Positions 1,610 to 64,000 of a DNA stretch of 64,000 bases are shown here, one piece after another. A program made the position numbers and the translations under genes. Under the pieces are notes generated by a model. That model searched no databases, was not told where the DNA came from, and saw only the letters and a program-made list of their open reading frames with translations. This DNA comes from a virus. The DNA is taken from positions 1 through 64,000 of the IMG/VR virus record IMGVR_UViG_3300013126_000026. One strand, 5' to 3'. Numbering within the stretch: the stretch's first letter is position 1; the number at the start of each line of letters is the position of its first letter.

Positions 1610-2005
1610 TTAATTTATAGCATCAAACCTATATAATCTACCTTTATATTGTATAGTAACCGTTTCTCCAACTTTATATTGTACGGGAACATTGCTACAT
1701 CTTTGGGTAATCTCTTGATTAACTTGATCTTGTCCAATACGATTTCCTACCATACCACCAATCACTGCTCCTGCAATAGTAGCTGCGGTATTTCCATCAC
1801 CACGCCCAACTTGATTGCCTATGATACCACCAGCTACCCCACCTAATACTGTGCCTACTCCGCTATTATCAGTTGGTGTGGACACTTGACTACACTGCCG
1901 CTGATACATGGTTTGGTATTTGGGTTGAACATTTACAACTTGAACTTCTTGACCATACGCACTAATACTGATTAAACCTAACAATCCTACAAATAATTTC
2001 TTCAT
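1610..2005 (-). CDS. Secreted glycine-zipper 2TM-type envelope protein
   Basis: 131 residues from the ATG at 2005, which has GGAGG eight bases upstream; the open frame's earlier in-frame start lacks this. Residues 1-18 (MKKLFVGLLGLISISAYG) are a signal peptide. Residues about 50-90 hold two glycine zippers (GTVLGGVAGGIIGNQVG and AGAVIGGMVGNRIG), typical of proteobacterial outer-membrane/lipoprotein-like 17-kDa-antigen-type proteins. Such proteins insert in or bridge the envelope. A phage copy may alter the host surface or take part in superinfection exclusion or lysis; that role is inference. Confidence 0.75.
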   Translation of the reverse strand: MKKLFVGLLGLISISAYGQEVQVVNVQPKYQTMYQRQCSQVSTPTDNSGVGTVLGGVAGGIIGNQVGRGDGNTAATIAGAVIGGMVGNRIGQDQVNQEITQRCSNVPVQYKVGETVTIQYKGRLYRFDAIN

Positions 2006-2023
2006 GGCAATATCCTCCATAAT

Positions 2024-2031
2024 TATTTATC
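2024..2031 (-). promoter_or_regulatory. T4-late-promoter-like GATAAATA box
   Basis: One mismatch from the T4 late -10 box TATAAATA, placed 18 bases upstream of the glycine-zipper start with a GGAGG ribosome site between. T4 late promoters need only this box. AT-rich DNA makes chance matches common. Confidence 0.35.
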
Positions 2032-2419
2032 CTCTACGCATGTTAGCAGCATCAATCGCAGCCTGTTGACTAAAAACGGGTTGTAAACAACTCTTATGCA
2101 TAATAGTAATACCCAATACATTGTCGCCTGTATATTGTTGACTTTGTTTTGAAGTAACCGCACCCTTCACACCAGTATCCAAACTAGGAATATGATTAGT
2201 CATACTACGACCAGGAGGTGGTGCCAATACAGGAAAGGGACGGGTAAGTGGGCGTGACTTTACACTAGGCTTACTAGCACTAGCCCACTCACTTTGTTTT
2301 TGTTCCCATTCTTGTTTAAGTTCTCGTGCTTTGCGTGCCTCATCAGCATTACGAAACTTTACTTTGCCTTTGCGTTTGCCCATTGTGGTAAGAGCAGGGT
2401 GTGCTAGATGCATGGTCAT
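2027..2419 (-). CDS. Hypothetical phage protein, 130 aa
   Basis: A basic, proline-rich N-terminal half (KRKGKVKFRNADEARKAREL) precedes a C-terminal segment with GITIMHKSCLQPVFSQQAAID, a pattern I associate with conserved small phage proteins of unknown role. Preceded by a sigma70-type promoter at 2444-2472. Confidence 0.6.
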   Translation of the reverse strand: MTMHLAHPALTTMGKRKGKVKFRNADEARKARELKQEWEQKQSEWASASKPSVKSRPLTRPFPVLAPPPGRSMTNHIPSLDTGVKGAVTSKQSQQYTGDNVLGITIMHKSCLQPVFSQQAAIDAANMRRG

Positions 2420-7092: not shown

Positions 7093-7707
7093 TTAATCTT
7101 TTGTTGATTCATTATCTTCCTTTAAATTTATGCTAGCATTAAAAGCTATAGAAATCCTATCTTCATCATATAAATTTGGTTCAACATAGTGCACTAAAAA
7201 GGCAGGAAAAATGTAAAGGTCGCTTATATTTGGTACATATCTAGCAGTTGAACTTACAAACTCATTGTAATCAATAATTGTGTCAGGATTAATATGGTAT
7301 TGAAAATTAGTAGCAGGATGTTGAAATACAATACCACTTCCATTAGTTTTACACTTTATGTAATAAACTCCCGAAAATGTTGCTCCAGGATGAACATGCG
7401 GTCTATTAAAGCCTGACTTAGGATTAATATTTATCCATAAATTATCTATCGATATATAAGTTTTTTCATCTTTAAACTTCCAAAATTCTGCCACCTTTTC
7501 TACATGGTATCGTATTGTTGTAGCGAGTTTGGCAACTTCTTCATTGACTAAAGTTAATGATTGACTTTGCCAAGCTCCTACATTACTATTAGTTGCAGCT
7601 TTAGTAGAATTTTTTAATTGGTAGCTATAAGCTATTAATTTCTCATTGTCAATATTGTCTAAATTTGTATAGGCAAGGAAACTAGTAAAAAAGGTTTCAA
7701 TCTTCAT
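7093..7707 (-). CDS. 2OG-Fe(II) oxygenase, phage TIGR02466-like
   Basis: 204 residues. Iron-binding block RPHVHPGATFSGVYYI (HxH), then IFPAFLVHYVEP carrying the distal His, and RISIAFN with the arginine expected to bind 2-oxoglutarate. These three blocks in this order define the double-stranded beta-helix oxygenases. Phage members may hydroxylate protein, nucleic acid or small-molecule substrates; the target is unknown. It is adjacent to a second paralogue and is one of seven related genes in this window. Confidence 0.8.
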   Translation of the reverse strand: MKIETFFTSFLAYTNLDNIDNEKLIAYSYQLKNSTKAATNSNVGAWQSQSLTLVNEEVAKLATTIRYHVEKVAEFWKFKDEKTYISIDNLWININPKSGFNRPHVHPGATFSGVYYIKCKTNGSGIVFQHPATNFQYHINPDTIIDYNEFVSSTARYVPNISDLYIFPAFLVHYVEPNLYDEDRISIAFNASINLKEDNESTKD

Positions 7708-9444: not shown

Positions 9445-11952
9445 TTAGCCTGCTGGTGTACCATATGCAAAAATTGGGTCGCTTGGCCCGGCGCTAACTG
9501 CATAATAAGCATTACCTTGTTGATTTGTGTTATTAAATCCAATTTGCACTGGACTATTTACATTTGCCATTGCACCTCCACCAAGACCAGAATACAGCAC
9601 CCCATTTCCCCAAGCATACAAGGTATTATCTGATAAAATCCCAACCACCATGCCGTTATTTCTGGAAGCAACTGCTACCCAGCTACTTGACCCCACTTGT
9701 ACAGGGCTGCTTACAGCAGAAGCACCACCAGTACCCAATGTTACTGCCGCTCCCCAAGTAAATAATTTATTATTAGCATCTATACCTTGAGAACTACTGG
9801 CGCTGCCATTTACAAACTTCCATATATTATTGCCTATTTGTGTAGGCAAGGTTTTTGAGCTTGCTGTTCCGTCACCTAATGACCCTGACGTATTCGTTCC
9901 CCAACCAAATAATAATCCATCCATGCGTATAACCCAAGCCCCCGTCCCTCTACTTGAGACATATTGCCAATAGTCAGTGCCAATCTGCACTGGGCTGCTT
10001 CTGTCTGTCAACGTTCCGTCACCTAGTGCTGCCCCATTGACAGACCTGCCCCATGACCACAAGGTTCGGTCTGATCTGATAGCATAAGTAGTATCACCTG
10101 TGCTAACCATATTCCAACTGCTAGAACCAATCTGAACAGGGCTACTTTGATTAATTTGTGTCCCGTCACCCAATTGTCCGTAAAAATTATTACCCCATGC
10201 CCATAGTGTAAAGTCGTCACGAATAGCAAGTACAGAACCTGAAAGACCTGTACTAACCATTTTCCAACTGTTAGTACCTAATTGTGTAAAGCTACTGCTA
10301 TCGGTAGTGGTCCCATCTCCTAATGAACCAATTGAGTTTAATCCATAATTCCATAAAGTGTTGTCAGATTTAATAGCCTGAACTGTAAAAGGGGACACTG
10401 TAGTTTGTATACTTTTCCAAGTAGTTGAAGGAGTTAAACTATCAAACATACGAGTTAGCTGTCTTAATTGTGGTATAGAATTCTGTGTTATCTCTGTCCA
10501 AGTTGTATATAAGGATGTAGTTGATGTCATACCAATGGCTAGTGGGACTGACCCTGCCAAATAAGCAGTAGAGTTTAAATCAGAATAAATAGCCCCACCA
10601 ATATTGCCAGAACCCGTTGAAATTCCTGAAACAAATTTTACATTTGAAGCAACTTGCGTAGGTATACTAACAGATACAGTATCTCCTGTACCCAACTGAT
10701 ATGTTTGGTTAGTCCCACATACATATAAATCATTATTACTATCAACCATATATGATCTTTGCAAAGCCAGATTAGGACGAAGAAATACTGTTTTATCACT
10801 ATTGGCTCTTATCCAATTATTTGCCGATCCCATTTGCACTGGGACAAGATAACTTAAAGTAGTATTTTGTCCTTGCCCTAGTTCATAACTTGAGTTTTGT
10901 CCCCAGCCCCATAATGTTCCATCATCTTTTACCGCTACAACATGTGAATCTGCTAGTCCAACGTCTACCCAATTGCCTGACACTTGTACTGGAGTACTTG
11001 AATTTGTAGTATTACCTCTAGCTAACATACCTACTAACCCTGATCCCCATATATATAATTGATTTTGATCATTTATCGCAGCCATATTAAATTTACCAGA
11101 ATTTACAGTCACCCAATTATTTGCTGATCCTACTTGAACTGGACTGCTGTATGAAGTAGTACTTCCTACCCCCAAAACGCCACTTGTTCCTAACCCCCAA
11201 GTCCAAAGTGTATTATCCGATCGTATAGCTCCAGTAAAATTAGCACCACATGAAACCATATTCCAACTACTTGTTCCTATTTGTACAGGTGAACTAGCCC
11301 ACGCTGTAGACCCTGTACCCAGAACACCATTTATTCCATTTCCCCAAGCCCAAAGCAAATTATTATTGTCGATAAATAGCACCGAATTAATAGATGTGGA
11401 ATATTTTTTATAACTATCATCAGTTGATGTAGTAACTTTACCAGGTATTTGTATAGGATAGGGTTGGGTCCCAGGTGCGATTGATGTGCTTCTAAAACTA
11501 GAGAAACCTTGAAAAATTCCATAGTTAGCAGTAAGAGAATTACCAACTATATTACCATAGTTAAAAAGATTCCCATTTGTGTCAATAAAATTTAACTGGC
11601 CTCCTGAGGATAAAGTCTGTGTAGGAAATCTGATAGGTACTTTAGGCACTTGAAGTGTATTATAGGCATCAGGGGAGGCTATTGCCACGTCGGTGAACCC
11701 AAACACTGTGTAAGCAGATATGGCAGGGACAGGAACTGTCCCTGCCGCAGCAAATAATTGTCCTATATCAGATCCTACACTGGTAGAAAAAAAGTTAGTG
11801 GTTCCATATGCTGCCCCTGCGCTAGCTGGAGCATAAACACTACCTAAATCATTACCTTGTATAGTGAATCCTGTATTTGCTCCTGGGGTAGCGTTACCAA
11901 TTGGATCTAATAAACTATCTAAATCTATGCCATTTACTGAATACCCAGCCAT
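9445..11952 (-). CDS. RCC1-repeat beta-propeller protein, 835 aa
   Basis: After about 110 N-terminal residues of non-repeat sequence, the protein carries many units of the form WxWGxNxxGxLGxGTTxxxxSPVQIG...W..VS.G....AI..DN.L. This is the RCC1 blade signature; units occur around residues 130-430 and 510-800, enough for two seven-bladed propellers. No signal peptide. Propellers of this kind bind proteins or glycans. Length, repetitive make-up and a T4-late-like box upstream suggest a virion surface protein or adhesin rather than a GTPase regulator. Role is inferred. Confidence 0.75.
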   Translation of the reverse strand: MAGYSVNGIDLDSLLDPIGNATPGANTGFTIQGNDLGSVYAPASAGAAYGTTNFFSTSVGSDIGQLFAAAGTVPVPAISAYTVFGFTDVAIASPDAYNTLQVPKVPIRFPTQTLSSGGQLNFIDTNGNLFNYGNIVGNSLTANYGIFQGFSSFRSTSIAPGTQPYPIQIPGKVTTSTDDSYKKYSTSINSVLFIDNNNLLWAWGNGINGVLGTGSTAWASSPVQIGTSSWNMVSCGANFTGAIRSDNTLWTWGLGTSGVLGVGSTTSYSSPVQVGSANNWVTVNSGKFNMAAINDQNQLYIWGSGLVGMLARGNTTNSSTPVQVSGNWVDVGLADSHVVAVKDDGTLWGWGQNSSYELGQGQNTTLSYLVPVQMGSANNWIRANSDKTVFLRPNLALQRSYMVDSNNDLYVCGTNQTYQLGTGDTVSVSIPTQVASNVKFVSGISTGSGNIGGAIYSDLNSTAYLAGSVPLAIGMTSTTSLYTTWTEITQNSIPQLRQLTRMFDSLTPSTTWKSIQTTVSPFTVQAIKSDNTLWNYGLNSIGSLGDGTTTDSSSFTQLGTNSWKMVSTGLSGSVLAIRDDFTLWAWGNNFYGQLGDGTQINQSSPVQIGSSSWNMVSTGDTTYAIRSDRTLWSWGRSVNGAALGDGTLTDRSSPVQIGTDYWQYVSSRGTGAWVIRMDGLLFGWGTNTSGSLGDGTASSKTLPTQIGNNIWKFVNGSASSSQGIDANNKLFTWGAAVTLGTGGASAVSSPVQVGSSSWVAVASRNNGMVVGILSDNTLYAWGNGVLYSGLGGGAMANVNSPVQIGFNNTNQQGNAYYAVSAGPSDPIFAYGTPAG

Positions 11953-12247: not shown

Positions 12248-12837
12248 GATTCACGACTATCAATAATTTTATCTACCAATCCAAAACTTACAGATTCTTC
12301 GGCACTCATGTATTTGTCACGCTGTGTTGCGGCAATTAGTTCTTCCTCAGTTTTTCCTACTGAGTTATGCTTAACATAAATTTGAGTTAATGTGGTATTA
12401 AGTTTAATCATTTCTTCCATTTGAATTTTAGCATCCCATACTGTACCTCTAGAACCGCCAGAAACTGAATGTATCATATGGCGAGCATTAGGTAGAATAT
12501 ATCGTTTACCAGTACTTCCTGCTTGTGCTAACAAACTACCCATACTACAAGCTTGCCCCATTACAATAGTGCTTACATCTGGTTTAATAAATTGCATGGT
12601 ATCATAAATCGCAAGACCTGCGGTTACGCTACCACCTGGACTATTAATGTATAGTTGAACATCTTTGGAACTATCTTCACTTTCCAAAAACAATAATTGT
12701 GCTACAATAAGATTTGCCATTTGGTCATGTACTTCACCTTCAAGCAAAATCACTCGATCCCGTAATAATCGGCTGTAAATATCGTAGCTACGTTCGCCTT
12801 TGCTTGTCTGTTCAAGCACCATTGGTACCAAAGTCAT
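12244..12837 (-). CDS. clpP: ATP-dependent Clp protease proteolytic subunit
   Basis: 197 residues, full family length. Catalytic triad visible: Ser98 in [10 protein letters not shown], His123 in [10 protein letters not shown], Asp174 in [11 protein letters not shown]. The N-terminus [20 protein letters not shown] is the usual axial-loop sequence of bacterial ClpP, and no long propeptide is present. It forms a tetradecameric barrel that degrades substrates fed by ClpX or ClpA. The same window encodes a ClpX with the docking loop and a ClpS adaptor, so the phage could build its own ClpXP or mix with host parts. Confidence 0.95.
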
Positions 12838-12874
12838 AAGATTCCTTTTAAATTAATATCAATAAATATTATAT

Positions 12875-13966
12875 ATGAGATACTACGAAATTAAAAATCT
12901 TTTGGAAGAAGTAAACAAGGACGAAACCCCAGGGGTAGCACCTGCGCCCGTAACCAAGCAACAAGTAGAGCAAATACTAAGAGCCGCAGGATACGAACAG
13001 TTTAAAATAGCAAGAAATAAGATTAATGTTTTGGTTCAAATCCCCGATGGTCAGAAAAAAGCGGAATTTCGTAGTGCTATCCTAAGAGAAATATTAGCTA
13101 CATTACAGCAAAAACTACCTGAGGGTGATGCTGAATTTACTACTGACCCGGGCGTAAGTAGTATAGGCGGTATTGTTTTCACAGATAGTCCTGTTAGTGT
13201 AGTAGTCAAAGACGTTGGTAAACAAGGTGATCAAAGTGCGGGTGTAGCGAACGAATTAGAATTAGCTAGTTTATTACAATCAGTAATTGAAAAATACGGT
13301 AGCGCAAACGTTAGTTTTGTAGATGAACGCGGTAAACGCATGACCATTAAAAATTGTACTAATGTAGATGTAGCCGGCCGTGACACATCAGGTCGTAAAA
13401 AAGCAGACGTTGTATTGACTAGTGAACGAGGATCACTTCCTATTAGTATCAAAAAATTAGATGCTGACATGTGGGAAAGTGCTGACAATTTGTTTGGTGA
13501 ACGTGCTAGAGGAATATTAGATAAACTAATCGCTAGCGGAGATATTAGATTAAACAAGATTGGTGACAGAAAAATGAAGACAGGTACCGTGCCTGTTTAT
13601 GAACTAAGCAAAGAAATCGTCATGGAACCTACTGAAGAAGAAGCCATGCAAGCGATCTTTGGTAGTGATTTAAATCCTAAAGGCGGTGTTGTCATACAAA
13701 CATTCAAACCCGAGCATTTTAAACAAGTTGACAACAATATCACAGTGGATGCCCATGCGGTTATCACAAACAAGGCTGAAATTCCTGAAAGCCATTTAAT
13801 GGTTTGGTTATTACGCAACGATAGCACACGCAATGGGGGTAGCTTAGGTATCGCCGGTATTAGACCACTGGGAGTTACATTAACTCGCGGTATAGGTAAG
13901 ACCGGTAAAAAAGATGTTATTCTGGTTGATGTAAACGGAAACGTTGTTAAGAATCCTAATATTTAA
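12875..13966 (+). CDS. Putative packaged protein with possible nuclease-like core, 363 aa
   Basis: Plus-strand gene divergent from clpP. The N-terminus MRYYEIKNLLEE resembles the starts of the genes at 14057-15604 and 36293-36832 and could be a capsid-targeting peptide cleaved at an L-x-E site. Residues about 165-195 contain KKADVVL...GSLPISIKK, a spacing that resembles the D...xIK core of PD-(D/E)xK nucleases but is not conclusive. The last 90 residues are rich in glycine and hydrophobic beta-strand pattern. Not otherwise recognised. Confidence 0.6.
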   Translation: MRYYEIKNLLEEVNKDETPGVAPAPVTKQQVEQILRAAGYEQFKIARNKINVLVQIPDGQKKAEFRSAILREILATLQQKLPEGDAEFTTDPGVSSIGGIVFTDSPVSVVVKDVGKQGDQSAGVANELELASLLQSVIEKYGSANVSFVDERGKRMTIKNCTNVDVAGRDTSGRKKADVVLTSERGSLPISIKKLDADMWESADNLFGERARGILDKLIASGDIRLNKIGDRKMKTGTVPVYELSKEIVMEPTEEEAMQAIFGSDLNPKGGVVIQTFKPEHFKQVDNNITVDAHAVITNKAEIPESHLMVWLLRNDSTRNGGSLGIAGIRPLGVTLTRGIGKTGKKDVILVDVNGNVVKNPNI

Positions 13967-35422: not shown

Positions 35423-35555
35423 ATATTATTTAATTGTTTAGGGACACAAAGTTGCTGTTATTTAAGAGCTAGCGTAGGCTTCGGGTCTCCGCTTATCGTT
35501 ATTACTAACTACTGCTCTCCCTGTTAGTTTGTCACCCTATCCTGGTGACTGTATT
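35423..35555 (-). ncRNA. Gene-free stretch with hairpins
   Basis: Minus strand holds GTCACC-AGGATAG-GGTGAC and ACTAAC/GTTAGT stems just downstream of tRNA-CAT(35556). It could be a tRNA-processing spacer or small RNA. Weak case. Confidence 0.25.
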
Positions 35556-35629
35556 TGGATGCGGGTCTAGGAGTCGAACCTAGAACAAAGGCTTATGAGA
35601 CCTTTATGATACCCTTTCAACAACCCGCT
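35556..35629 (-). tRNA. tRNA with anticodon CAT, initiator-like (third of three)
   Basis: Anticodon stem-loop AAGGT-CTCATAA-GCCTT. The acceptor AGCGGGT/ACCCGCA leaves positions 1 and 72 as A·A, unpaired as in initiator tRNAs (C·A in E. coli). The three G-C pairs expected in an initiator anticodon stem are not present, so the call stays tentative. Encoded CCA. Confidence 0.75.
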
Positions 35630-35630
35630 A

Positions 35631-36167
35631 TTAAAACGACCATTCTTTATTAACACGTATGCCACCGACTAATACAAATTTGTTTTTTGTAGGCAATCCT
35701 TCATGTTCATACGCACTATTAAAGAATACAATCTTATTTGCTTCAGGCTCAATATCAAAATAATTTATATCATTATAAAACCTAGTACTACCAACACAGC
35801 TATTTAAATACAATATAAATGAATGATCCTCGTTTTTACAATGGTTATGTTTAATTTGATATCCATCAACATATTTTATCATATGTAAATGATAAATGTC
35901 AACACTAAAGCTTAAGATTTTATTATAATATTGTTTCAAGTATTCATTAGCTAATGTCATTAATATTTGGTTGGTATTAATGTCAAATAAATGTACAATG
36001 TTAGTAGTTTGTGTTCCATTTACTGTTCCAAGACCAACGTTGGAAGTAATTAATTTATCTTTAATAGCTAATTTATAAACTTCTTTTATCTTATTTGTGA
36101 CTTGACTAGATATAAAATCAACGTATAAATTATTACCTACAATTTTAAACATGATATATTTACACAA
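35631..36167 (-). CDS. 2OG-Fe(II) oxygenase-like protein, 178 aa
   Basis: YQIKHNHCKNEDHSFILYLN, then NKIVFFNSAYEHEGLPT and VLVGGIRV follow the order of iron block, distal His and substrate Arg of the oxygenase fold. The iron block is less typical than in the other six copies, so activity is less certain. Ends two bases before a tRNA. Confidence 0.55.
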   Translation of the reverse strand: MCKYIMFKIVGNNLYVDFISSQVTNKIKEVYKLAIKDKLITSNVGLGTVNGTQTTNIVHLFDINTNQILMTLANEYLKQYYNKILSFSVDIYHLHMIKYVDGYQIKHNHCKNEDHSFILYLNSCVGSTRFYNDINYFDIEPEANKIVFFNSAYEHEGLPTKNKFVLVGGIRVNKEWSF

Positions 36168-36188
36168 ACAAACAATAAGAAAACAATT

Positions 36189-36280
36189 TGGTGGAAGCGG
36201 TGAGATTCGAACTCACGGACCCGGTTACCCGAATCGACAGGTTAGCAACCTGCTGCCTTAAGCCGCTCGGCCACGCTTCC
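36189..36280 (-). tRNA. tRNA-Ser(GCT)
   Basis: Class II: acceptor GGAAGCG/CGCTTCC, anticodon loop TTGCTAA, long variable arm (TCGATTCGGGTAACCGGG), encoded CCA. Confidence 0.93.
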
Positions 36281-36292
36281 GTATACAATATT

Positions 36293-36832
36293 TCAATTAT
36301 GAACTATAAACTTAAGACCTGCTTGATTAGCAATAACTGCCCAAGCATCACTATGATCTTCGTTTACTGAAAAGCACACTGCCTGTGCTTGTGTGTTCTT
36401 TAATTGACTGTTGCCGTACTTGGCCCATTCTCTAGCAATTAATTTCCATACACCTTTATATTGACCACTAGCAGCATCATCTACCATAAGTTCAAGATAT
36501 TTAGTATTATCTTCCATATAATAAAGTGGACTAACTACAAAACTACATTCCCAATTTGGGTTGTCACGCATATTAAATACATCAATATCAAGTTCGCTAA
36601 AACGAATTTTAGGATCAGTTGTAGCCATTATAAAGATATCATCTCGCCTTACACGAATTGGCACATTAGGATACAAACTGTTAAATGAATTTTTTACAAC
36701 TTTAGCCATATATGCTGCTGCTTTCGGGGCCCAAGTTCTCATTAATTCTTGCTCCCACTCTTGGCCTAGTTTCTCGTCCATAGTGTTAGAAGCTTCATTT
36801 ATAATATTAATATAGTATCGAATATCATTCAT
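36293..36832 (-). CDS. Putative packaged protein, 179 aa
   Basis: Starts MNDIRYYINIINEAS, with IINE followed by A as a T4-prohead-protease-like site; this start is similar to those at 12875 and 15604. The ATG at 36832 was chosen over an in-frame GTG five codons upstream. The body (EQELMRTWAPKAAAYMAK, later WECSFVVSPLYYMED) is not recognised. Confidence 0.6.
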   Translation of the reverse strand: MNDIRYYINIINEASNTMDEKLGQEWEQELMRTWAPKAAAYMAKVVKNSFNSLYPNVPIRVRRDDIFIMATTDPKIRFSELDIDVFNMRDNPNWECSFVVSPLYYMEDNTKYLELMVDDAASGQYKGVWKLIAREWAKYGNSQLKNTQAQAVCFSVNEDHSDAWAVIANQAGLKFIVHN

Positions 36833-36853
36833 AATAATATTTATCACAGTTTA

Positions 36854-36938
36854 CCATATTGAAACACACTCATCACACGCCGTACGGTAGGCGATCAACT
36901 CTACAGCCTGATAGGCATCAAAATGTGCTTCAATATGG
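36854..36938 (-). repeat. Inverted-arm element A
   Basis: Arms CCATATTGAAGCACA and TGTGTTTCAATATGG (minus strand), 15 bp with one G-U pair, enclosing a 55-nt loop with GCCT/AGGC and GCC/GGC hairpins. Confidence 0.7.
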
Positions 36939-37254
36939 CGCCAGTCCCTAAACTGGCTTCATATTATCTTCTGTGTCTTGGACGACGGTCCTCAGGTCTC
37001 GAAATCCGTATGCGAAGTCCACCATCACTCGCATATTTTAGTTGACGGGGCTTACACCCGCCTCGACCAAGTAAGCCGCTAACTCTAGGGATTTGAGCAA
37101 CAGGCTTGTCGGGACTAATTTTTTAAATATAGTTGCCGGTTACAAAATCCGGCGTTACACTTTCGGAGTAACTGTTCTACCTATCCCGCCACCGACTTCG
37201 TTTAAGACTCGCCGCCTTTATACACGCTGATAGCCACGTGTTCTGGTATTGTTA

Positions 37255-37376
37255 CCATATTGAAACACACTACACTATTTGCTATGCTCATGCGGAATAG
37301 TCTAGAATTACCGCAATTATGTACATAGTTACTCAGGCATGATCAAGCCCATGGCTTGCAATGTGCTTCAATATGG
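37255..37376 (-). repeat. Inverted-arm element B
   Basis: Same 15-bp arms as element A, enclosing a different, longer loop with CAAGCC-ATG-GGCTTG and GCGG/CCGC hairpins. The arms of A and B can also pair with each other across the core. Confidence 0.7.
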
Positions 37377-37511
37377 TGACAGTCTTTCCCGTCTGTCAAT
37401 AACGTCAATGTTACACCTGTATTTCTCATATCACTATTGCAGATATGCAGTTCCCTGATTACCAAGCCACCAGTTAAGGGAGACGTTATCTCCACCCATC
37501 AATCCAAACTT

Positions 37512-37586
37512 TGGCGATCCCGCGGGGAATCGAACCCCGATATCCGACTAGACAGGCCGGTATAATAACCACTATATGACGAGACC
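37512..37586 (-). tRNA. tRNA-Asp(GTC)
   Basis: Acceptor GGTCTCG/CGGGATC, anticodon loop CTGTCTA, G73, encoded CCA. Confidence 0.92.
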
Positions 37587-37591
37587 ATGTT

Positions 37592-37665
37592 TGGCATCCC
37601 GGGAGGGATTCGAACCCCCACAAACAGTTTTGGAGACTGCTATGCTACCATTACACCACCGAGAC
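37592..37665 (-). tRNA. tRNA-Trp(CCA)
   Basis: Anticodon loop CTCCAAA, acceptor GTCTCGG/CCGGGAT with G·U at 1-72, G73, encoded CCA. Confidence 0.9.
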
Positions 37666-37677
37666 ATTGTTTGGAAC

Positions 37678-38286
37678 TTACCAGTGCTTTATTCTTTCAA
37701 GCAATTCATTTATAGTAATAGAATTCTTTTCTCGTTTACTTTGATTTTGTCGATGCAACATAAGTTTGCAGTTGGCAGGATGTTTAATGATTTCAGGATC
37801 TATTCCCAATTCAAATCCAGTCCTAACACTAACCATATGATCTTTTGATACACCGTTAAGATTGTTGCCTTTATTACTAGGACTATACCATCCGTATTGT
37901 TCGACTAGCATCAATTCGAATTTATTTGGATAGTCTTTAATATTAAAATCAAAATTACATCTTTGTCTGTACAAAATAAACGGTTGTTTGGTTTTTTCCG
38001 TATACTCAATCCAACATTTAGACGAACAAAATTTTTTATTAAAATGCGTCTTGTTGCACTCTAAACATTTTTTCTCAATTTTATTTTTTCTGTTAAAATT
38101 ATTACCAAGTTCTATATTTTTAATATGCTCAGAGGACAACTTTCTTCCAAAGAGTTTATTGGATACTTTTTGATTAATTTCCTGTCTCTTACTTTTAGTT
38201 GAGTAACCACGAGCACACTTAAGACTACAAAATCTTCCTGATCCATAATCACCATTATGGTGATTTTTACAATTTTCACAAATCAT
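37678..38286 (-). CDS. HNH-type homing endonuclease with zinc fingers, 202 aa
   Basis: Two CxxC...C..C fingers (CENCKNHH...CSLKC and CLECNKTH...CSSKC) precede a C-terminal HNH-like nuclease region KDHMVSVRTGFELG then HPANCKLMLHRQNQSK. This layout is common in phage mobile endonucleases. It sits between tRNA-Trp and tRNA-Cys, a usual target area. Confidence 0.7.
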   Translation of the reverse strand: MICENCKNHHNGDYGSGRFCSLKCARGYSTKSKRQEINQKVSNKLFGRKLSSEHIKNIELGNNFNRKNKIEKKCLECNKTHFNKKFCSSKCWIEYTEKTKQPFILYRQRCNFDFNIKDYPNKFELMLVEQYGWYSPSNKGNNLNGVSKDHMVSVRTGFELGIDPEIIKHPANCKLMLHRQNQSKREKNSITINELLERIKHW

Positions 38287-38328
38287 TTGAACCCTCGCTT
38301 TTTATATATTTAGCATAAGTTCGTAATC

Positions 38329-38414
38329 TGGAGTGAGCGACAGGACTCGAACCTGCATTACCTTTCGGTGTTACGGATTTGCAATCCGGTGCGTCGCCAT
38401 TCCGCCACGCTCAC
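38329..38414 (-). tRNA. tRNA-Cys(GCA) with class II (long variable) arm
   Basis: Anticodon loop TTGCAAA and U73 give cysteine identity, acceptor GTGAGCG/CGCTCAC, encoded CCA. The variable region AACACCGAAAGGTAAT forms an ACC-GAAA-GGT hairpin, and the D-arm is of Leu/Ser type. Standard tRNA-Cys has a short variable loop. Confidence 0.85.
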
Positions 38415-38423
38415 ATTAACATT

Positions 38424-38498
38424 TGGTAGGGGCAGCAGGGATTGAACCTGCGACCTCGATGTTAAAAGCATCTTGCTCTACCTCTGAGCTATACCCCC
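38424..38498 (-). tRNA. tRNA-Lys(TTT)
   Basis: Anticodon loop CTTTTAA, acceptor GGGGGTA/TGCCCCT, A73, encoded CCA. Confidence 0.92.
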
Positions 38499-38529
38499 AA
38501 ATAATTCTTTACATCTAATACAATAATGC

Positions 38530-38617
38530 TGGTGGGTGCTGATGGTAACGCTCCACGAACTCAACTTCCCATCTCTCAGAGTAACGGTTTTACAGACCGC
38601 CGACGGGGGCAACACCC
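38530..38617 (-). tRNA. tRNA-Tyr(GTA)-like, non-canonical
   Basis: Acceptor GGGTGTT/AGCACCC, anticodon stem-loop GCGGT-CTGTAAA-ACCGT, A73 and encoded CCA fit tRNA-Tyr, and total length (88) is normal. But only about ten bases lie between acceptor and anticodon stem, so there is no D-arm, and the T stem GATGG/CCATC encloses 23 bases instead of seven. Either a degenerate gene or an unusual fold. Confidence 0.55.
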
Positions 38618-38631
38618 TTATTCTTTACATA

Positions 38632-38700
38632 CCATATTATAGCACACTACTCATCGGTATACATCACCATTTGACTGTTCGGCAATGTGCTATAATATGG
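38632..38700 (-). repeat. Inverted-arm element C
   Basis: Perfect 15-bp arms CCATATTATAGCACA / TGTGCTATAATATGG around a 39-nt loop, a variant of elements A and B. It ends one base from the 3' end of tRNA-Glu and lies upstream of the Tyr-like gene. Confidence 0.7.
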
Positions 38701-38701
38701 G

Positions 38702-38773
38702 TACACCGTACGGGAGTCGAACCCATCTTTGCGCCTTGAAAGGGCGCCGTCCTAACCGATAGACGAACGGTGC
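38702..38773 (-). tRNA. tRNA-Glu(TTC)
   Basis: Anticodon stem-loop GCGCC-CTTTCAA-GGCGC, acceptor GCACCGT/ACGGTGT. CCA is not encoded (the DNA reads CCC), so it relies on CCA-adding enzyme. Confidence 0.88.
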
Positions 38774-38838
38774 GTATGTACATCAATTGTTAAAGATCCT
38801 GTTTACACTGAATTGCGTACAACTCAGTCAATAAAAGC

Positions 38839-38867
38839 ATTTTACACTAACTACGATTTATTGTCAA
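38839..38867 (-). promoter_or_regulatory. Sigma70-type promoter TTGACA-17-TAAAAT
   Basis: Perfect -35, 17-bp spacer, one-mismatch -10 on the minus strand, 66 bp upstream of tRNA-Glu. With the next promoter it forms a tandem pair sharing the downstream sequence AATAAAAGCAT (plus strand), likely driving the tRNAs to its left. Confidence 0.75.
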
Positions 38868-38919
38868 CTTGTTTTTTACTACTCACTATAAACAACTTGC
38901 TCAATCAATCAATAAAAGC

Positions 38920-38948
38920 ATTATATATTAAACAGGAATTATTGTCAA
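38920..38948 (-). promoter_or_regulatory. Consensus sigma70 promoter TTGACA-17-TATAAT
   Basis: Perfect hexamers and spacer, upstream member of the tandem tRNA promoters. The 38774-38968 gap holds nothing else that I can see. Confidence 0.85.
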
Positions 38949-38968
38949 ATTACTTGCTACTACTAATA

Positions 38969-39553
38969 TTACAAGGGTATAAAGTGATTGACTGATGGTA
39001 TTTGAGTGATTGATTCGATTGGAATAATGTCAAAAGCAATCGTAATTCTTGGCATCGATTCATCATTCCATACTGAACTGCGATGTTGATCACCATTACT
39101 TTTACCAAACACTAAACGTCCATCTATACTAGGAACTACAACATCATTTTGTGATCCAGGTATTCTATATGTTGTGTTACTATCACCAACTTGAACACAA
39201 TAAAAACCATGCCATACACGTTTTTCAACTTCCCAGTGAGTATGCCAATCTATACTTTGTCCTACTCTATAAACATTCAACCAACTTTTTAACATACAGT
39301 AAGTATTACTTTCTAAATAAGGCTTAGTATGCTTACGTATTTCATGATATAACTTATTCAACTCTATACATGGATAGGTCAGTAGGTTATAGTTATCATG
39401 TTGAGAGGTCGTAAACGTGCCATATTTCTTGCCTTGATCCATTGTAAACTTTAATAGAAATTTTTCAAAGTCTAAACAAGTATTGGCTAATACTAGATTG
39501 TTTATGGTAGACAAATCGATACTATACAAATAATCGTCAAAATAAGTTACCAT
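38969..39553 (-). CDS. 2OG-Fe(II) oxygenase-like protein, 194 aa
   Basis: WLNVYRVGQSIDWHTHWEVE (HxH), GFYCVQVGD strand, then DQHRSSVWND and PRITIAFDI, the distal His and 2OG-binding Arg. Divergent from the tandem pair at 7093/7720. Substrate unknown. Confidence 0.65.
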   Translation of the reverse strand: MVTYFDDYLYSIDLSTINNLVLANTCLDFEKFLLKFTMDQGKKYGTFTTSQHDNYNLLTYPCIELNKLYHEIRKHTKPYLESNTYCMLKSWLNVYRVGQSIDWHTHWEVEKRVWHGFYCVQVGDSNTTYRIPGSQNDVVVPSIDGRLVFGKSNGDQHRSSVWNDESMPRITIAFDIIPIESITQIPSVNHFIPL

Positions 39554-39562
39554 AATTTAAAT

Positions 39563-39648
39563 TGGTGCCCAGAGCCGGAGTCGAACCGGCACGCCTTTTC
39601 GGCGAGGGATTTTAAGTCCCTTGTGTCTACCTGTTTCACCATCCGGGC
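39563..39648 (-). tRNA. tRNA-Leu(TAA)
   Basis: Anticodon stem-loop AGGGA-CTTAAAA-TCCCT, long variable arm CGCCGAAAAGGCG, acceptor GCCCGGA/TCTGGGC, encoded CCA. A normal class II Leu, unlike the copy at 32970. Confidence 0.93.
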
Positions 39649-39659
39649 AGTATTCAAGT

Positions 39660-39688
39660 ATTATATACACACTACTATATATTGTCAA
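39660..39688 (-). promoter_or_regulatory. Consensus sigma70 promoter TTGACA-17-TATAAT
   Basis: Perfect hexamers and spacer, 12 bp upstream of tRNA-Leu(TAA). Confidence 0.85.
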
Positions 39689-39695
39689 TATGTTA

Positions 39696-40313
39696 TCAGA
39701 AATCTTTTACCAAAACACTAACACTACTATCACCGTTGCCTAATAATCCAACTGGGTAAAAGTTATAAGCAATACTATGTCTTATACTATTACTATCGTT
39801 AAGTCCTATTCTATGACTTAAATAGCTTGGAAAAAACGCAATCAAATTACTTTGATATTGTAATATAAACTTATCAGAATTATATGTGTTATTAAATTCA
39901 GGGACAATGAAAAACTGCGAACCATGTGTATTCTCAAACTCTAAATTGCTTGGTTTATCTATGTTTTCCCAATACACAATACCACTATAATAACAATTCT
40001 TATGTGTATGAAACTGACTATATCCTTGTGGCAAAGTTTTAGTTGCCCAAGATGTAGTCATAACAAATTCAGTATTAGTTAATTTTAATACTTTGTTTTT
40101 AAAATCAGTAAAATAATTACAAATAATGTTCTTAATGTTTGGAAAACTATCTAGTAAACGGAAATCTTTTGATACACTTGCTAGATAACTCCCATCGTTT
40201 CCCTTATCATTAAATTCACAATCTACAACGTTATGTAGTTCAGAGAGGTCTTCAGTGACTTTATAAGTGCCTAGTACTGAAGGGAAAAGTGGGTAAACAA
40301 TACATTTATTCAT
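39696..40313 (-). CDS. 2OG-Fe(II) oxygenase, TIGR02466-like
   Basis: 205 residues. TTSWATKTLPQGYSQFHTHK then NCYYSGIVYW (iron HxH), FFPSYLSHRIGLND, HSIAYNFYPVG. Closest in pattern to the gene at 7720, sharing TSWA, YSG and FPS..SHR blocks. Confidence 0.8.
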   Translation of the reverse strand: MNKCIVYPLFPSVLGTYKVTEDLSELHNVVDCEFNDKGNDGSYLASVSKDFRLLDSFPNIKNIICNYFTDFKNKVLKLTNTEFVMTTSWATKTLPQGYSQFHTHKNCYYSGIVYWENIDKPSNLEFENTHGSQFFIVPEFNNTYNSDKFILQYQSNLIAFFPSYLSHRIGLNDSNSIRHSIAYNFYPVGLLGNGDSSVSVLVKDF

Positions 40314-40319
40314 AATTTA

Positions 40320-40394
40320 TGGTCCGACCGGAGGGAATCGAACCCCCATTCTGGATTTAGAAGAACCATGTCCTATCCATTGAACGACGGTCAG
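40320..40394 (-). tRNA. tRNA-Arg(TCT)
   Basis: Anticodon stem-loop TGGTT-CTTCTAA-ATCCA, acceptor CTGACCG/CGGTCGG, encoded CCA. Reads AGA/AGG codons. Confidence 0.9.
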
Positions 40395-40399
40395 ATATT

Positions 40400-40478
40400 T
40401 GGCTCCGGACGTGAGGTTCGAACTCACCTAACCATGGATTAACAGTCCAGCCCATGCACCTAGCTCGGGTTCTCCGGA
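40400..40478 (-). tRNA. tRNA-Asn(GTT)
   Basis: Anticodon loop CTGTTAA, acceptor TCCGGAG/GTCCGGA with a mismatch at 7-66, G73, encoded CCA, enlarged D-loop (79 nt total). Confidence 0.87.
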
Positions 40479-40484
40479 ATAATT

Positions 40485-40560
40485 TGGTGCTGCATGTCGG
40501 ATTCGAACTGACCACCTACTGATTACAAATCAGTTGCTCTACCAAATGAGCTAATGCAGC
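40485..40560 (-). tRNA. tRNA-Thr(TGT)
   Basis: Anticodon loop TTTGTAA, acceptor GCTGCAT/ATGCAGC, encoded CCA. Confidence 0.93.
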
Positions 40561-40578
40561 ATGAATTTATTTACACGT

Positions 40579-40607
40579 AGTATACACGTGTGTTTATTTT
40601 TTGTCAA
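40579..40607 (-). promoter_or_regulatory. Sigma70-type promoter TTGACA-17-TATACT
   Basis: Perfect -35 and 17-bp spacer, one-mismatch -10, 19 bp upstream of tRNA-Thr(TGT). Drives the Thr-Asn-Arg trio. Confidence 0.75.
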
Positions 40608-60883: not shown

Positions 60884-61897
60884 TTATAATTTACAACTCT
60901 CACAATCTTCTTCCAATTCTTGTACTACGAATGTTGGTTCTGTTTGTGCTGGTTCTTGACTTTTACTTCCTGCTTTATTAATTAAACTATAATAAAATGT
61001 TTTAATACCATAATGGTGTGCTAACATAAGATTTTTAGCAATCGTAGTGATAGGAACTTTTCTATTATGATAATATGCTGGATTGTAAAACGTGTTTGTG
61101 CTGATACTTTGATCTACATAAGCCTGTAATACAGCAGCCGTTTTGATATAGTCTAAACAATCCTTTTGTTCCCACATTAATTGATACTTGTTTTTAAGTT
61201 TGTGATATTCAGGAACAACTTGAGTTAAACTTGCTGCTTTGCTTTCTTTTACTGTAATTAAACTCATTGGTAGCTCAATACCATTTGTGCTGTTAATTAC
61301 TACACTACTGCTTTCAACAGGCGCTATTGCCATTAATGTAGCATTACGTACACCATATTGTTTCATGTTTTCTCTAAGTGGTTCCCAATCTAATTCAGAT
61401 TTAAAATCGGCTAACTCATTTACACCGTTGGCTCTACGTTCCCATGGGAAAATACCACGACCATAATATGTTTTATCACTATCAACACACTTACCGCGTT
61501 CTTTAGCAAGTTCCACAGTTGCCTCAGTCAAGTAATATGCCTGATGTTCCATCCAAGACTTTACATCACGTAGTGCTTCTTTTTCTCCGTATTTGTAGCC
61601 ACGTTTTGCGTGCCAATACGCAAGATTTGTAACGCCAATACCAAGTGGTTGAATTTCATCGTTACTAAGTTGTGACTGTATGGACAAAAAATCTTGATAA
61701 TCTAATATATTACAGAGACTACGATGTAATACACGACATGCCCTACGCATATCTTCTGGATGACGGAATGCTCCCCAATTTATAGAGCCGAGTGTGCATA
61801 AGGCCACTCTGCCCTCCGCTTCATCAATTTCATAATATTCATATTCGTCATCTAACTCTTCGGGCAGATGTTCTATTTCTTCATATAGTTCGTTCAT
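60884..61897 (-). CDS. nrdA: Ribonucleotide reductase large subunit, C-terminal half (NrdA-b)
   Basis: 337 residues, starting with a 28-residue acidic stretch that joins GRVALCTLGSINWGAF. Holds the Cys equivalent to E. coli Cys462, the radical-transfer YY in KTFYYSL, and the C-terminal CESC redox pair. The N-terminal half is 1 kb upstream. Own ATG at 61897 with weak ribosome site. The gene is truncated by insertion, not decay; both halves look intact. Confidence 0.9.
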   Translation of the reverse strand: MNELYEEIEHLPEELDDEYEYYEIDEAEGRVALCTLGSINWGAFRHPEDMRRACRVLHRSLCNILDYQDFLSIQSQLSNDEIQPLGIGVTNLAYWHAKRGYKYGEKEALRDVKSWMEHQAYYLTEATVELAKERGKCVDSDKTYYGRGIFPWERRANGVNELADFKSELDWEPLRENMKQYGVRNATLMAIAPVESSSVVINSTNGIELPMSLITVKESKAASLTQVVPEYHKLKNKYQLMWEQKDCLDYIKTAAVLQAYVDQSISTNTFYNPAYYHNRKVPITTIAKNLMLAHHYGIKTFYYSLINKAGSKSQEPAQTEPTFVVQELEEDCESCKL

Positions 61898-61899
61898 TT

Positions 61900-62067
61900 T
61901 TATTTTCCAAAAATATTAATTAGCATAAGCAAAGATGGCATAGAAAACGATAATGCTAGTGCCCAAAACAAAGAACTTTTATACCACGGAGTATCCTTGA
62001 GTCCAAGAGTATCGCATAACTCTTTTTCAGACATTTTGCTAACATCAATATAATATATTTTTCTCAT
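61900..62067 (-). CDS. Small membrane-type protein inside split nrdA, 55 aa
   Basis: Starts MRKIYYIDVSKMSEKELCDT, one hydrophobic helix near the end (LFWALALSFSMPSLLMLI). Its ATG overlaps the stop of the homing endonuclease (ATGA). May be a passenger of the insertion. Not recognised. Confidence 0.5.
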   Translation of the reverse strand: MRKIYYIDVSKMSEKELCDTLGLKDTPWYKSSLFWALALSFSMPSLLMLINIFGK

Positions 62068-62831
62068 ACTCGTTTTCCATACTTTGTAATCAAATAGTAG
62101 CTTTTACCGGTCGCTTCTTTTGCTTCTGCAATGCTACTGTACACAATACCATCGTATTCTATTTTCACCGCTTCGTGATGACTGCTACCCCTGGCTGCTA
62201 ATTCTTTTAATTGCTGACTGCGGGCTTCTTTTCTCATAAACACATACTCTTTGGGTTCATATACTACATCACGCTTGTTAGTTAATTTTTTACATTTATA
62301 ACCTTTATACATGCTCTTTTTACCGCGAGCCACAGCACTCATAGCACTGGCGTTTAACTTATGTTGTCGGCAAAATTCAAGCATATTGTTAATACGCAAA
62401 ACTTCATTGACAGGTGTGATAACTTCCCAGTCATCCGCTAATTTAAGTTTTTGCTCATCTTTCATTGCCTTGCCTTTGTTATTGATTACTAAATCGCCAG
62501 AAGCAAACTTCCTTTTCTTTGTATAAGATATTTTAGGACCATTGCCACAATCGCCGCCACCTGCATTAGGAGCGATATTATAATACAAGGGGCTTTTAGC
62601 ACACCCAATTGTATCTAAATAATGTTGCTCTCTTATCAAAATATCCTCTTCTTTTTCTATATATTCTACAATAGTTCTTTCAAAATTCTCAATACCATAT
62701 TTGTTCACAGCATTACTAAAGCGTTTACCACTACCAATATATCCATCATCTATAGTACCTTTATGAGAACCCAAATATTTCATCCCGTCTAATTTGTTTG
62801 TCCATTCATATACAAAACCCGAATAGTTCAT
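62064..62831 (-). CDS. GIY-YIG homing endonuclease inserted in nrdA
   Basis: 255 residues. N-terminal GFVYEWTNKLDGMKYLGSH...GYIGSGKRF is the GIY-YIG core, with the conserved ENFERTIVEY and EEDILIREQHYLD (catalytic Glu). The C-terminal half (NMLEFCRQHKLNASAMSAVA, SIAEAKEATGKSYYLITK) holds NUMOD1/IENR-type DNA-binding helices. The SD is folded in a hairpin (62832-62880), as in T4 homing genes. The Aeromonas phage Aeh1 nrdA is split similarly by mobE. Confidence 0.9.
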   Translation of the reverse strand: MNYSGFVYEWTNKLDGMKYLGSHKGTIDDGYIGSGKRFSNAVNKYGIENFERTIVEYIEKEEDILIREQHYLDTIGCAKSPLYYNIAPNAGGGDCGNGPKISYTKKRKFASGDLVINNKGKAMKDEQKLKLADDWEVITPVNEVLRINNMLEFCRQHKLNASAMSAVARGKKSMYKGYKCKKLTNKRDVVYEPKEYVFMRKEARSQQLKELAARGSSHHEAVKIEYDGIVYSSIAEAKEATGKSYYLITKYGKRV

Positions 62832-62880
62832 ATGTGCCTCCTATACAGTTATTCATCAGTACTCTGTACTTTAGGCACAT
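62832..62880 (-). promoter_or_regulatory. Hairpin that covers the homing endonuclease ribosome site
   Basis: Arms ATGTGCCT (62880-62873) and AGGCACAT (62839-62832) pair perfectly; the second arm overlaps GGAGG and ends at the ATG. An inner AGTAC/GTACT hairpin lies in the loop. T4 I-TevI-type genes use such hairpins to block early translation. Confidence 0.7.
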
Positions 62881-62884
62881 TTAA

Positions 62885-64000
62885 CTATCTAATTTTTCTA
62901 ATGCTAATAATATCTGTTGGTTTATTTTTCATAAATTCATCGACCTTGTTCTTTTTGACCTTAATTAATTTTCGTACTGGATCAATTTTTCTAAAACTCT
63001 TTGTAGGCAAAAGGACCTCTAAACAAAGATTGGATTGATAAATTGTATGGTAATCAGGATCGAATGGTCCTTGGTTCATAACATTATCAATGAATACTAG
63101 ATAAATTCTACCAGTATCGGTGCGTTCTTTTAGAATGCCACTTTGGAATACTTCTTCAGCACTCATTGACTTCTTTCTAAGGTCTTTACGCTTTTCGTAT
63201 TTTACATAGAGTTCTTCAAAGAGTTCTGTATTTTTATAGAAGGCTTCGTACAAATCGGGCACCTCGTTTGGATCGAAGAATGTGATATCTTCTTTGTTTT
63301 TAAATCTACGCCAAAAGAATGCTGATAATACGACTCCGTAGTCCATGTGGCGTACTCTAGTTTCTTCAGTCCCTTGATTGTTTTTAAGTACGATAAGATC
63401 ATCAAACTGATGATGCCAAATTGGATAAAACACAGTAGCACTAGCATTTCGTATACCTCCTTGACTGCAACTACGCAAATCACCGAACCATTTCTTTAAG
63501 AAAGGAATCATACCAGTATGCATGATTTCTCCACCACGAATAGGACTACCTAATGGACGTAATCTACCTATTTCTAATCCTATACCAGCACGTTTGCTAG
63601 CATACTTTGCCATCATTTCACCACTAGCAAAAATACTATCAAGGTCGTCATCACTACGGATAAGAACGCAACTACTAAACTGTTTAGTTGGAGTGCCAAG
63701 CCCAGCCAGCACAGGAGTAGCAAGAGTGAAAAGACCATCACTGGCAGCATTATAATATTCCTTTATGTAGCGCATTCTAGCATTGTTTGGTTCTTCTTTA
63801 TGAAATACTGTAGCAGCAGCAATCATATAGCGCACTTGTGGTGTTTCATAGATTTCTTTTGTGCTACGATTTCTTACTAGATATTTTTCTATAAGTTGTT
63901 CGATGGCAGCATAGCTATATAATTCATCTTTACTATGGTCTATCATGTCGTTCATTTTATTCCAATCTTCGACAGTATACCATTCTAATAGTTCCTGTGT
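62885..64000 (-). CDS. nrdA: Ribonucleotide reductase large subunit, N-terminal half (NrdA-a), partial at the window edge
   Basis: The frame is open to the right edge: ELLEWYTVEDWNKMNDMIDH precedes the first in-window ATG (63955), matching the E. coli region before IDHDRD, so 63955 is not the true start. Contains the partner Cys (KQFSSCVLI, E. coli Cys225), and SNLCLEVLLPTK with Asn437, Cys439 and Glu441 equivalents. After LPTKSF comes about 32 residues of unrelated sequence (basic), then stop: the split point. Confidence 0.92.
   Translation of the reverse strand, partial: TQELLEWYTVEDWNKMNDMIDHSKDELYSYAAIEQLIEKYLVRNRSTKEIYETPQVRYMIAAATVFHKEEPNNARMRYIKEYYNAASDGLFTLATPVLAGLGTPTKQFSSCVLIRSDDDLDSIFASGEMMAKYASKRAGIGLEIGRLRPLGSPIRGGEIMHTGMIPFLKKWFGDLRSCSQGGIRNASATVFYPIWHHQFDDLIVLKNNQGTEETRVRHMDYGVVLSAFFWRRFKNKEDITFFDPNEVPDLYEAFYKNTELFEELYVKYEKRKDLRKKSMSAEEVFQSGILKERTDTGRIYLVFIDNVMNQGPFDPDYHTIYQSNLCLEVLLPTKSFRKIDPVRKLIKVKKNKVDEFMKNKPTDIISIRKIR

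Follow-up and report, generated by a model that had tools for sequence, protein, structure and literature searches.

Does the hairpin-dense stretch of about 660 nucleotides in the tRNA array of an uncultured virus encode one large ornate RNA, or is it built of smaller ones? An earlier note on this DNA had drawn attention to a pair of elements with identical inverted arms and had put the locus forward as a candidate new structured RNA. That observation is right but understated: the locus consists of five small modules of structured RNA (M1-M5), set one after another among tRNA genes of the same orientation, and the arm repeats serve as stems, each closing a small RNA cassette of its own. That the modules are structured RNAs is practically certain, and that they are exchangeable is very probable; the reading as a whole, namely exchangeable noncoding RNA cassettes cut from the tRNA transcript, probably through their long stems, we consider fairly probable.

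The locus in its tRNA array

The window, that is, the whole stretch of DNA analysed, is 64 kb of a 68.3-kb virus record, and the 26 tRNA genes that ARAGORN finds in it lie without exception on the minus strand. In minus-strand order, the features of the locus and its surroundings are:

38839..38948, minus strand: tandem sigma-70-like promoters (consensus match only), upstream of tRNA-Glu
38700..38773, minus strand: tRNA-Glu(ttc), with hairpin M6 directly after it
38632..38700, minus strand: M6, a cassette whose hairpin has the variant arms CCATATTATAGCACA/TGTGCTATAATATGG; loci L026, L090, L097 and L142 share its core family
38529..38631, minus strand: M7, a structured module, at 65-100% identity in about 17 other viral loci
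37512..38498, minus strand: tRNA-Lys, tRNA-Cys, a 202-aa ORF (37678-38286), tRNA-Trp and tRNA-Asp, between M7 and M1
37377..37503, minus strand: M1, directly upstream of hairpin 1; also in L033, L041, L047, L142 and L171
37255..37376, minus strand: M2 (hairpin 1), arms 37362-37376 and 37255-37269, core 37270-37361
37126..37254, minus strand: M3, between hairpin 1 and M4
36939..37124, minus strand: M4, structured, with covarying helices; elsewhere it adjoins other tRNAs or modules
36854..36938, minus strand: M5 (hairpin 2), arms 36924-36938 and 36854-36868

The two putative promoters (TTGACA-17-TATAAT at 38948-38920 and TTGACA-17-TAAAAT at 38867-38839) lie within a 60-nt direct repeat, and one of them is a 12/12 match to consensus; no terminator-like site was seen on the minus strand from 35500 to 40600.

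Most of what had been read from the letters held on recalculation. The arm CCATATTGAAGCACA (37376-37362 and 36938-36924) pairs with TGTGTTTCAATATGG (37269-37255 and 36868-36854) in two minus-strand elements whose identical arms measure 15-17 bp and whose loops are unrelated, and the core of about 300 nt that had been placed between them is an interval of 316 nt. The third variant noted at 38632 is a perfect 15-bp stem (38700-38632) directly 3' of tRNA-Glu. The claim that no protein frame holds agrees with a 50-aa GTG ORF being the sole ORF of at least 50 aa wholly inside the locus. The count of at least eight perfect hairpins stands for stems of at least 5 bp, of which there are 9 (4.4 in shuffles, with 10 of 300 shuffles reaching 9), but falls at stems of at least 6 bp, of which there are only 4 (1.2 in shuffles), so that hairpin number alone is just modestly above chance. 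As for whether arms pair within or between elements, mismatches per 15 positions are 0.19 within an element versus 1.31 between elements, a comparison that is partly circular because the elements had been selected for internal pairing.

Several other genes of the window deserve record. The 202-aa ORF at 37678-38286 (minus strand), between tRNA-Trp and tRNA-Cys, matches phrog_23051, to which no function is assigned; by eye it has Cys-rich knuckles and an HNH-like end, and it is perhaps a homing endonuclease. The gap between M7 and M1 is 1030 nt in the window and 273 nt in the relative L142, and the ORF is therefore probably absent from the latter. Three 2OG-Fe(II) oxygenase-like ORFs (phrog_81; 35631-36167, 38969-39553 and 39696-40313, minus strand) stand amid the tRNA genes. 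The gene for the ribonucleotide reductase large subunit (phrog_84; 60884-63955, minus strand) looks split into a first part at 62885-63955 and a next part at 60884-61897, with about 1 kb between them that includes a 255-aa ORF (62064-62831) and is perhaps an intron or a homing insertion. An 835-aa protein of RCC1 repeats (Pfam RCC1, 7 stretches; 9445-11952, minus strand) is unusual for a phage. No phage relative was found for a 457-aa protein of the window, and the 68 kb of the window's own record hold no capsid gene.

Modules found alone and in other orders

The single 660-nt RNA of the earlier note, in which the hairpins would be structural arms of one GOLLD- or ROOL-like molecule, draws support from the density of structure over the 672 nt at 36840-37511 (-221.4 kcal/mol; shuffles -186.6 +/- 4.3; z = -8.1). 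GOLLD and ROOL, phage RNAs that form homo-oligomers with kissing loops, are likewise located near tRNA islands (PMC12286853). Against it, the locus breaks at its arms into modules each of which occurs elsewhere without the others and in other orders: M1 is joined straight to M5 in L033, L041 and L171, M2 straight to M3 in L145, L149 and L151, and M3, which recurs at 94-98% identity in about 20 other loci, straight to M5 in L097 and L166. GOLLD and ROOL are, moreover, single large, contiguous RNAs with Rfam models of their own, whereas the cassettes are modular, separable units of about 60-190 nt, and a search of Rfam 15 for GOLLD, ROOL, HEARO, raiA and other families, at gathering score and with E up to 5, gave only tRNAs as credible matches; the locus is not in Rfam, and on this point the earlier note is supported. 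On related arrays the same search added to the tRNAs no more than one permuted tmRNA and group I introns.

In L142, a close relative, M1 is 98% and M2, M6 and M7 are 100% identical to those of the window. Its order is M1-M2-X-M4-M5, with M3 swapped out for an unrelated module X that starts right after the shared arm, stops where M4 begins, and recurs in L040, L041, L171 and L007. The replacement of M3 by X is a cassette exchange caught between near relatives. The reading as one large RNA is thus largely refuted, and we regard it as very improbable.

A shared stem that behaves as RNA

The exact pattern CCATATTGAARCACA-N20-50-TGTGYTTCAATATGG is present in 96 viral contig stretches of IMG/VR, and a search of 84,980 prokaryotic species genomes gave no hit, so that the arms are not a product of chance. 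Searched as DNA in a phage collection, the whole locus and M3 alone gave nothing significant, and neither did a BLAST search of the five concatenated cassettes against 50,697 phage records. In 21 carrier records of up to 207 kb, the stem pairs form one or two clusters and are not scattered.

Statistics on the stem were drawn from 231 elements, 175 of them distinct, each given the orientation of the tRNA closest to it. These had been selected for pairing, and complementarity is no evidence in that set; the selection allowed A-C as readily as G-U, and for that reason an asymmetry between the two does count. On the tRNA-sense strand the non-Watson-Crick pairs are 131 G-U versus 29 A-C, with 76 G-U to 1 A-C at position 11 and 144 U-G at position 16. 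Watson-Crick pairs of several types occur at positions 6-9 and 12-17; the remaining A-C pairs fall mostly at position 8, in a recurring AAAA variant. The stem therefore acts as RNA.

This bears directly on the possibility that the elements are not RNA genes at all, but mobile or recombination elements at the DNA level, of the kind of attC-like sites or MITE-like palindromes. Such elements would show variable centres between palindromic arms, and cassettes that are inserted and replaced at those arms; in integrons, too, the attC sites are imperfect palindromes whose variable centres mark exchangeable modules. The bias to G-U instead of A-C, however, indicates that RNA and not DNA is under selection; the elements are grouped at tRNA arrays, a core may persist on entirely different arms, and no tyrosine recombinase or integrase (PF00589) was found in 21 records, many of them incomplete. 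A DNA-level explanation is already disfavoured and in our estimation improbable, though it could coexist with an RNA function.

On this one stem type, the 175 distinct elements carry about 110 core clusters, and core families recur with differing left and right flanks. Most clusters are singletons, and conservation is accordingly shown just for a minority of cores; the sequences compared are viral, metagenomic contigs, and the core families are mostly small.

Covariation and a palindromic loop

The M2 core (37270-37361) is present in 29 of the viral stretches scanned, where its arms are often unlike those of the window yet complementary to each other (CCTTAATTGTGTTATCTG/CAGATAACACAATTAAGG, CCATTTGATATGTCTACTG/CAGTAGACATTTCAAATGG, ACCTTAGATGAAGTCG/CGGCTTCATCTAAGGT). 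As these sequences were chosen by core and not by arms, their covariation is free of selection for pairing. Among 25 such sequences 98.9% of the basal helix is paired and 14 of its 19 pairs have changed on both sides; whole-structure covariation is 0.448, compared with 0.151 in shuffles and 0.04-0.11 with slid partners. M4 gives 0.337 versus 0.129 shuffled, and 14 of its 32 pairs have double changes (11 sequences). Covariation among related viral sequences, seen here in M2 and M4, joins the fold (z = -8.1) and the G-U bias in bearing out the structured RNA that had been proposed; RNA-level helices, covariation in two modules and modular shuffling establish both structure and modularity.

At the apex of the M2 hairpin stands a palindrome, TCTAGA at 37301-37306 in the window. 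All 21 distinct M2 apical segments have one, 6-12 nt long and of 12 different sequences, among them TCTAGA, CCGGCCGG, GCTGCAGC, AACTGCAGTT, CCTCGAGG, CTAGCTAG, CCAGCTGG and CCTGCAGG. Shuffled segments contain some 6-nt palindrome in about 10 of 21 cases, with a maximum of 17 in 1000 shuffles; this roughly twofold excess is not overwhelming alone, and the stronger point is that the palindrome is kept at the apex through so many sequences. A second core family has the loop palindromes CCGCGG, CTGCAG, CCTAGG and TCTAGA. Across all cores, palindromes of at least 6 nt are not enriched (62 versus 61.3 expected), the signal being confined to M2 and perhaps a second family. In the manner of the dimer initiation site (DIS) of HIV, an example of a kissing loop, M2 has an apical loop that stays self-complementary through sequence change. 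The simplest reading of the changing palindrome is a loop-loop homodimer like those that GOLLD and ROOL form by their kissing loops (PMC12286853), a prediction to which we give an even chance.

These results also weigh on a plainer account, by which the hairpins would serve the tRNA transcript as signals for processing or insulation and nothing more, and their cores would have no function of their own. It would readily accommodate some 110 different cores on one stem, the CCA and GG that the arms share with flanking tRNAs, and the extended leader and trailer stems of the tRNAs of KVP40. It sits less well with the conservation of the M2, M3 and M4 cores while arms or neighbours change, and with an M2 loop that remains palindromic as its sequence changes; we consider it unlikely.

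By eye, M2 had resembled 16S helix 1 and M3 the 23S L1 stalk. Mimicry of rRNA was dropped: in Smith-Waterman comparisons with E. coli rRNA, about 350 in all, neither module was among the top scores. Those came from other cores, in alignments with many gaps, and z reached about 5 at best.

Carriers and the nearest known RNAs

The phages that carry cassettes at their tRNA arrays are uncultured, and some are T4-like. A T4-like Gp23 capsid protein is encoded in 7 of 21 larger carrier records and is of two sorts, one nearest to cyanophages (65% identity), the other to PA5oct and Vibrio phage 2.275.O (66-67%); distant T4-like lineages therefore share the stem. Other features of these arrays were recorded in passing. 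L082 holds a permuted two-piece tmRNA in a phage tRNA array (1952-2275, minus strand; RF04321 82.7 bits, alpha_tmRNA 62.5 bits) and two group I introns (7381-7572 and 12747-12981) beside cassette hairpins. A conserved noncoding module of about 165 nt (TAGGAGCAGAGTCTAGTGGGATGG...) precedes tRNA-Arg, without the cassette stem, in L030:726-889, L059:3102-3265, L071:11879-12042 and L079:9724-9890, and is one of several recurring tRNA-array modules. A tRNA-like RNA of about 95 nt with a CCA end, a T-arm and a long variable region (L022:6941-7043, L051:9489-9593, L036:4681-4778) was missed by ARAGORN.

The nearest known things are RNAC (species 1) and RNAD (species 2) of T4 (NC_000866 70908-71171), small stable late RNAs of 119-139 nt from the tRNA array whose role is unknown (PMC3014915, PMC9697503). 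Like the cassettes, they are noncoding modules between co-oriented tRNA genes; unlike them, they are two fixed RNAs without an exchangeable long stem. The T4 tRNA array has no stem of at least 13 bp, and blastn gave no match to RNAC or RNAD in any examined locus. In L176:909-1172, the T-arm of T4 RNAC is canonical (CCGGGTTCGAATCCCGG) and RNAD leads into a CCA (GGCGCACCA); on these motifs, both look partly tRNA-like.

Could the cassettes then be decayed or aberrant tRNA genes? The T-arm motif GGKTCRANWCC occurs in 13 of 175 distinct elements versus 0.09 expected, GGTTCGA is the leading word of the cores (11 of 110 core families, 0.4 expected), and T4 RNAC bears a T-arm as well. Yet about 90% of the cores are without the motif, and the structure of M2 and M4 is kept by compensatory change, which decay does not give. 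Such an origin could concern no more than a minority of cores and is, in our judgement, extremely improbable.

A cultured counterpart may exist in Vibrio phage 2.275.O (MG592671 189696-189782), where an unannotated 15-bp stem, ATAAGCAAACACACT/AGTGTGTTTGTTTGT, directly adjoins tRNA-Arg on the 5' side; the 15-mer of its 5' arm recurs in an arm of the metagenomic element L092. It is a single element, one case in 12 kb in which shuffles give 0.6 stems of at least 13 bp, and its core finds nothing significant elsewhere in the phage collection; it nonetheless offers an entry to the laboratory. The KVP40 tRNA array (L178:1-8701) has a 20-bp stem that closes a core bearing a T-arm. In tRNAs of the same phage, leader and trailer extend the acceptor stem through the CCA (CTTTGG-tRNA-CCAAAG). 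Bacterial Y RNAs (YrlA) were set aside: no Ro60/TROVE gene (PF05731) was found in 21 records, many of them incomplete, and Rfam gave no YrlA match. No published description of such cassettes was found in a search of mostly freely available papers.

A proposed path from array to small RNA

Among 185 distinct contexts, 89 directly follow a tRNA, and in 88 of these the arm opens with the CCA of that tRNA. In 24 contexts the last letters are the GG with which the next tRNA begins. Since the arms both close a core and border a tRNA, co-transcription and processing would fit, and we think it somewhat probable that the cassettes are transcribed with the tRNAs and processed at the stems. In the scheme that we propose, a hairpin cassette has a basal helix of 15-20 bp that closes off a conserved core RNA; cores and helices are interchangeable, the helix CCATATTGAARCACATT/AGTGTGYTTCAATATGG being found on more than 100 core clusters and one core on many helices. 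The tRNA array would be transcribed as one precursor. Its long helices, as their length suggests, would be cut by a double-strand-specific, RNase III-like host nuclease in the way known from rRNA precursors, and the adjoining tRNAs would be released by RNase P together with trimming at the 3' end. No RNase III gene was found in 21 phage records, many of them incomplete, so that this absence is weak; taken as it stands, processing must use host enzymes. The freed RNAs would be stable small RNAs of the RNAC/RNAD type, and new cassettes would come by recombination within shared arms. More tentatively, some cores (M2) may dimerise via the self-complementary apical loop, and the fast-changing repertoire may serve anti-defence or host takeover.

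What the cassettes may do

Phage tRNAs can evade defences, and tRNA arrays carry anti-defence tRNAs (PMC11555353); the tRNA array is also where the homing endonuclease SegB amplifies anti-defence loci (PMC13096335). The cassette repertoire, diverse, patchy and swapped between phages, looks like accessory anti-defence genes, and by this analogy a role in anti-defence or host takeover is conceivable, though we hold it to be doubtful. It is an equally speculative thought that T4-like phages keep in their tRNA arrays an open-ended, horizontally shared library of small-RNA cassettes, a fast-evolving arsenal against host defences whose common plug-in principle would be a conserved core joined to an exchangeable 17-bp closing helix. 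Such an arsenal, if real, would parallel, at the level of RNA, integron cassettes or anti-CRISPR islands.

With more than 100 core clusters of RNAs placed like T4 RNAC and RNAD, and with comparative structure to hand, the question of their role becomes testable: which cores are conserved, which are swapped, and which track host or defence content. The modules of this locus, and more than 100 others on which the same 17-bp stem or a swapped one closes, are shuffled among many uncultured phages, some T4-like, and point to a large unstudied world of phage small RNAs. The exchangeable stem would give a new rule by which phage noncoding RNAs missed in family-by-family searches could be found. If the cassettes act in trans, tRNA arrays would carry, besides their tRNAs, an RNA arsenal as well.
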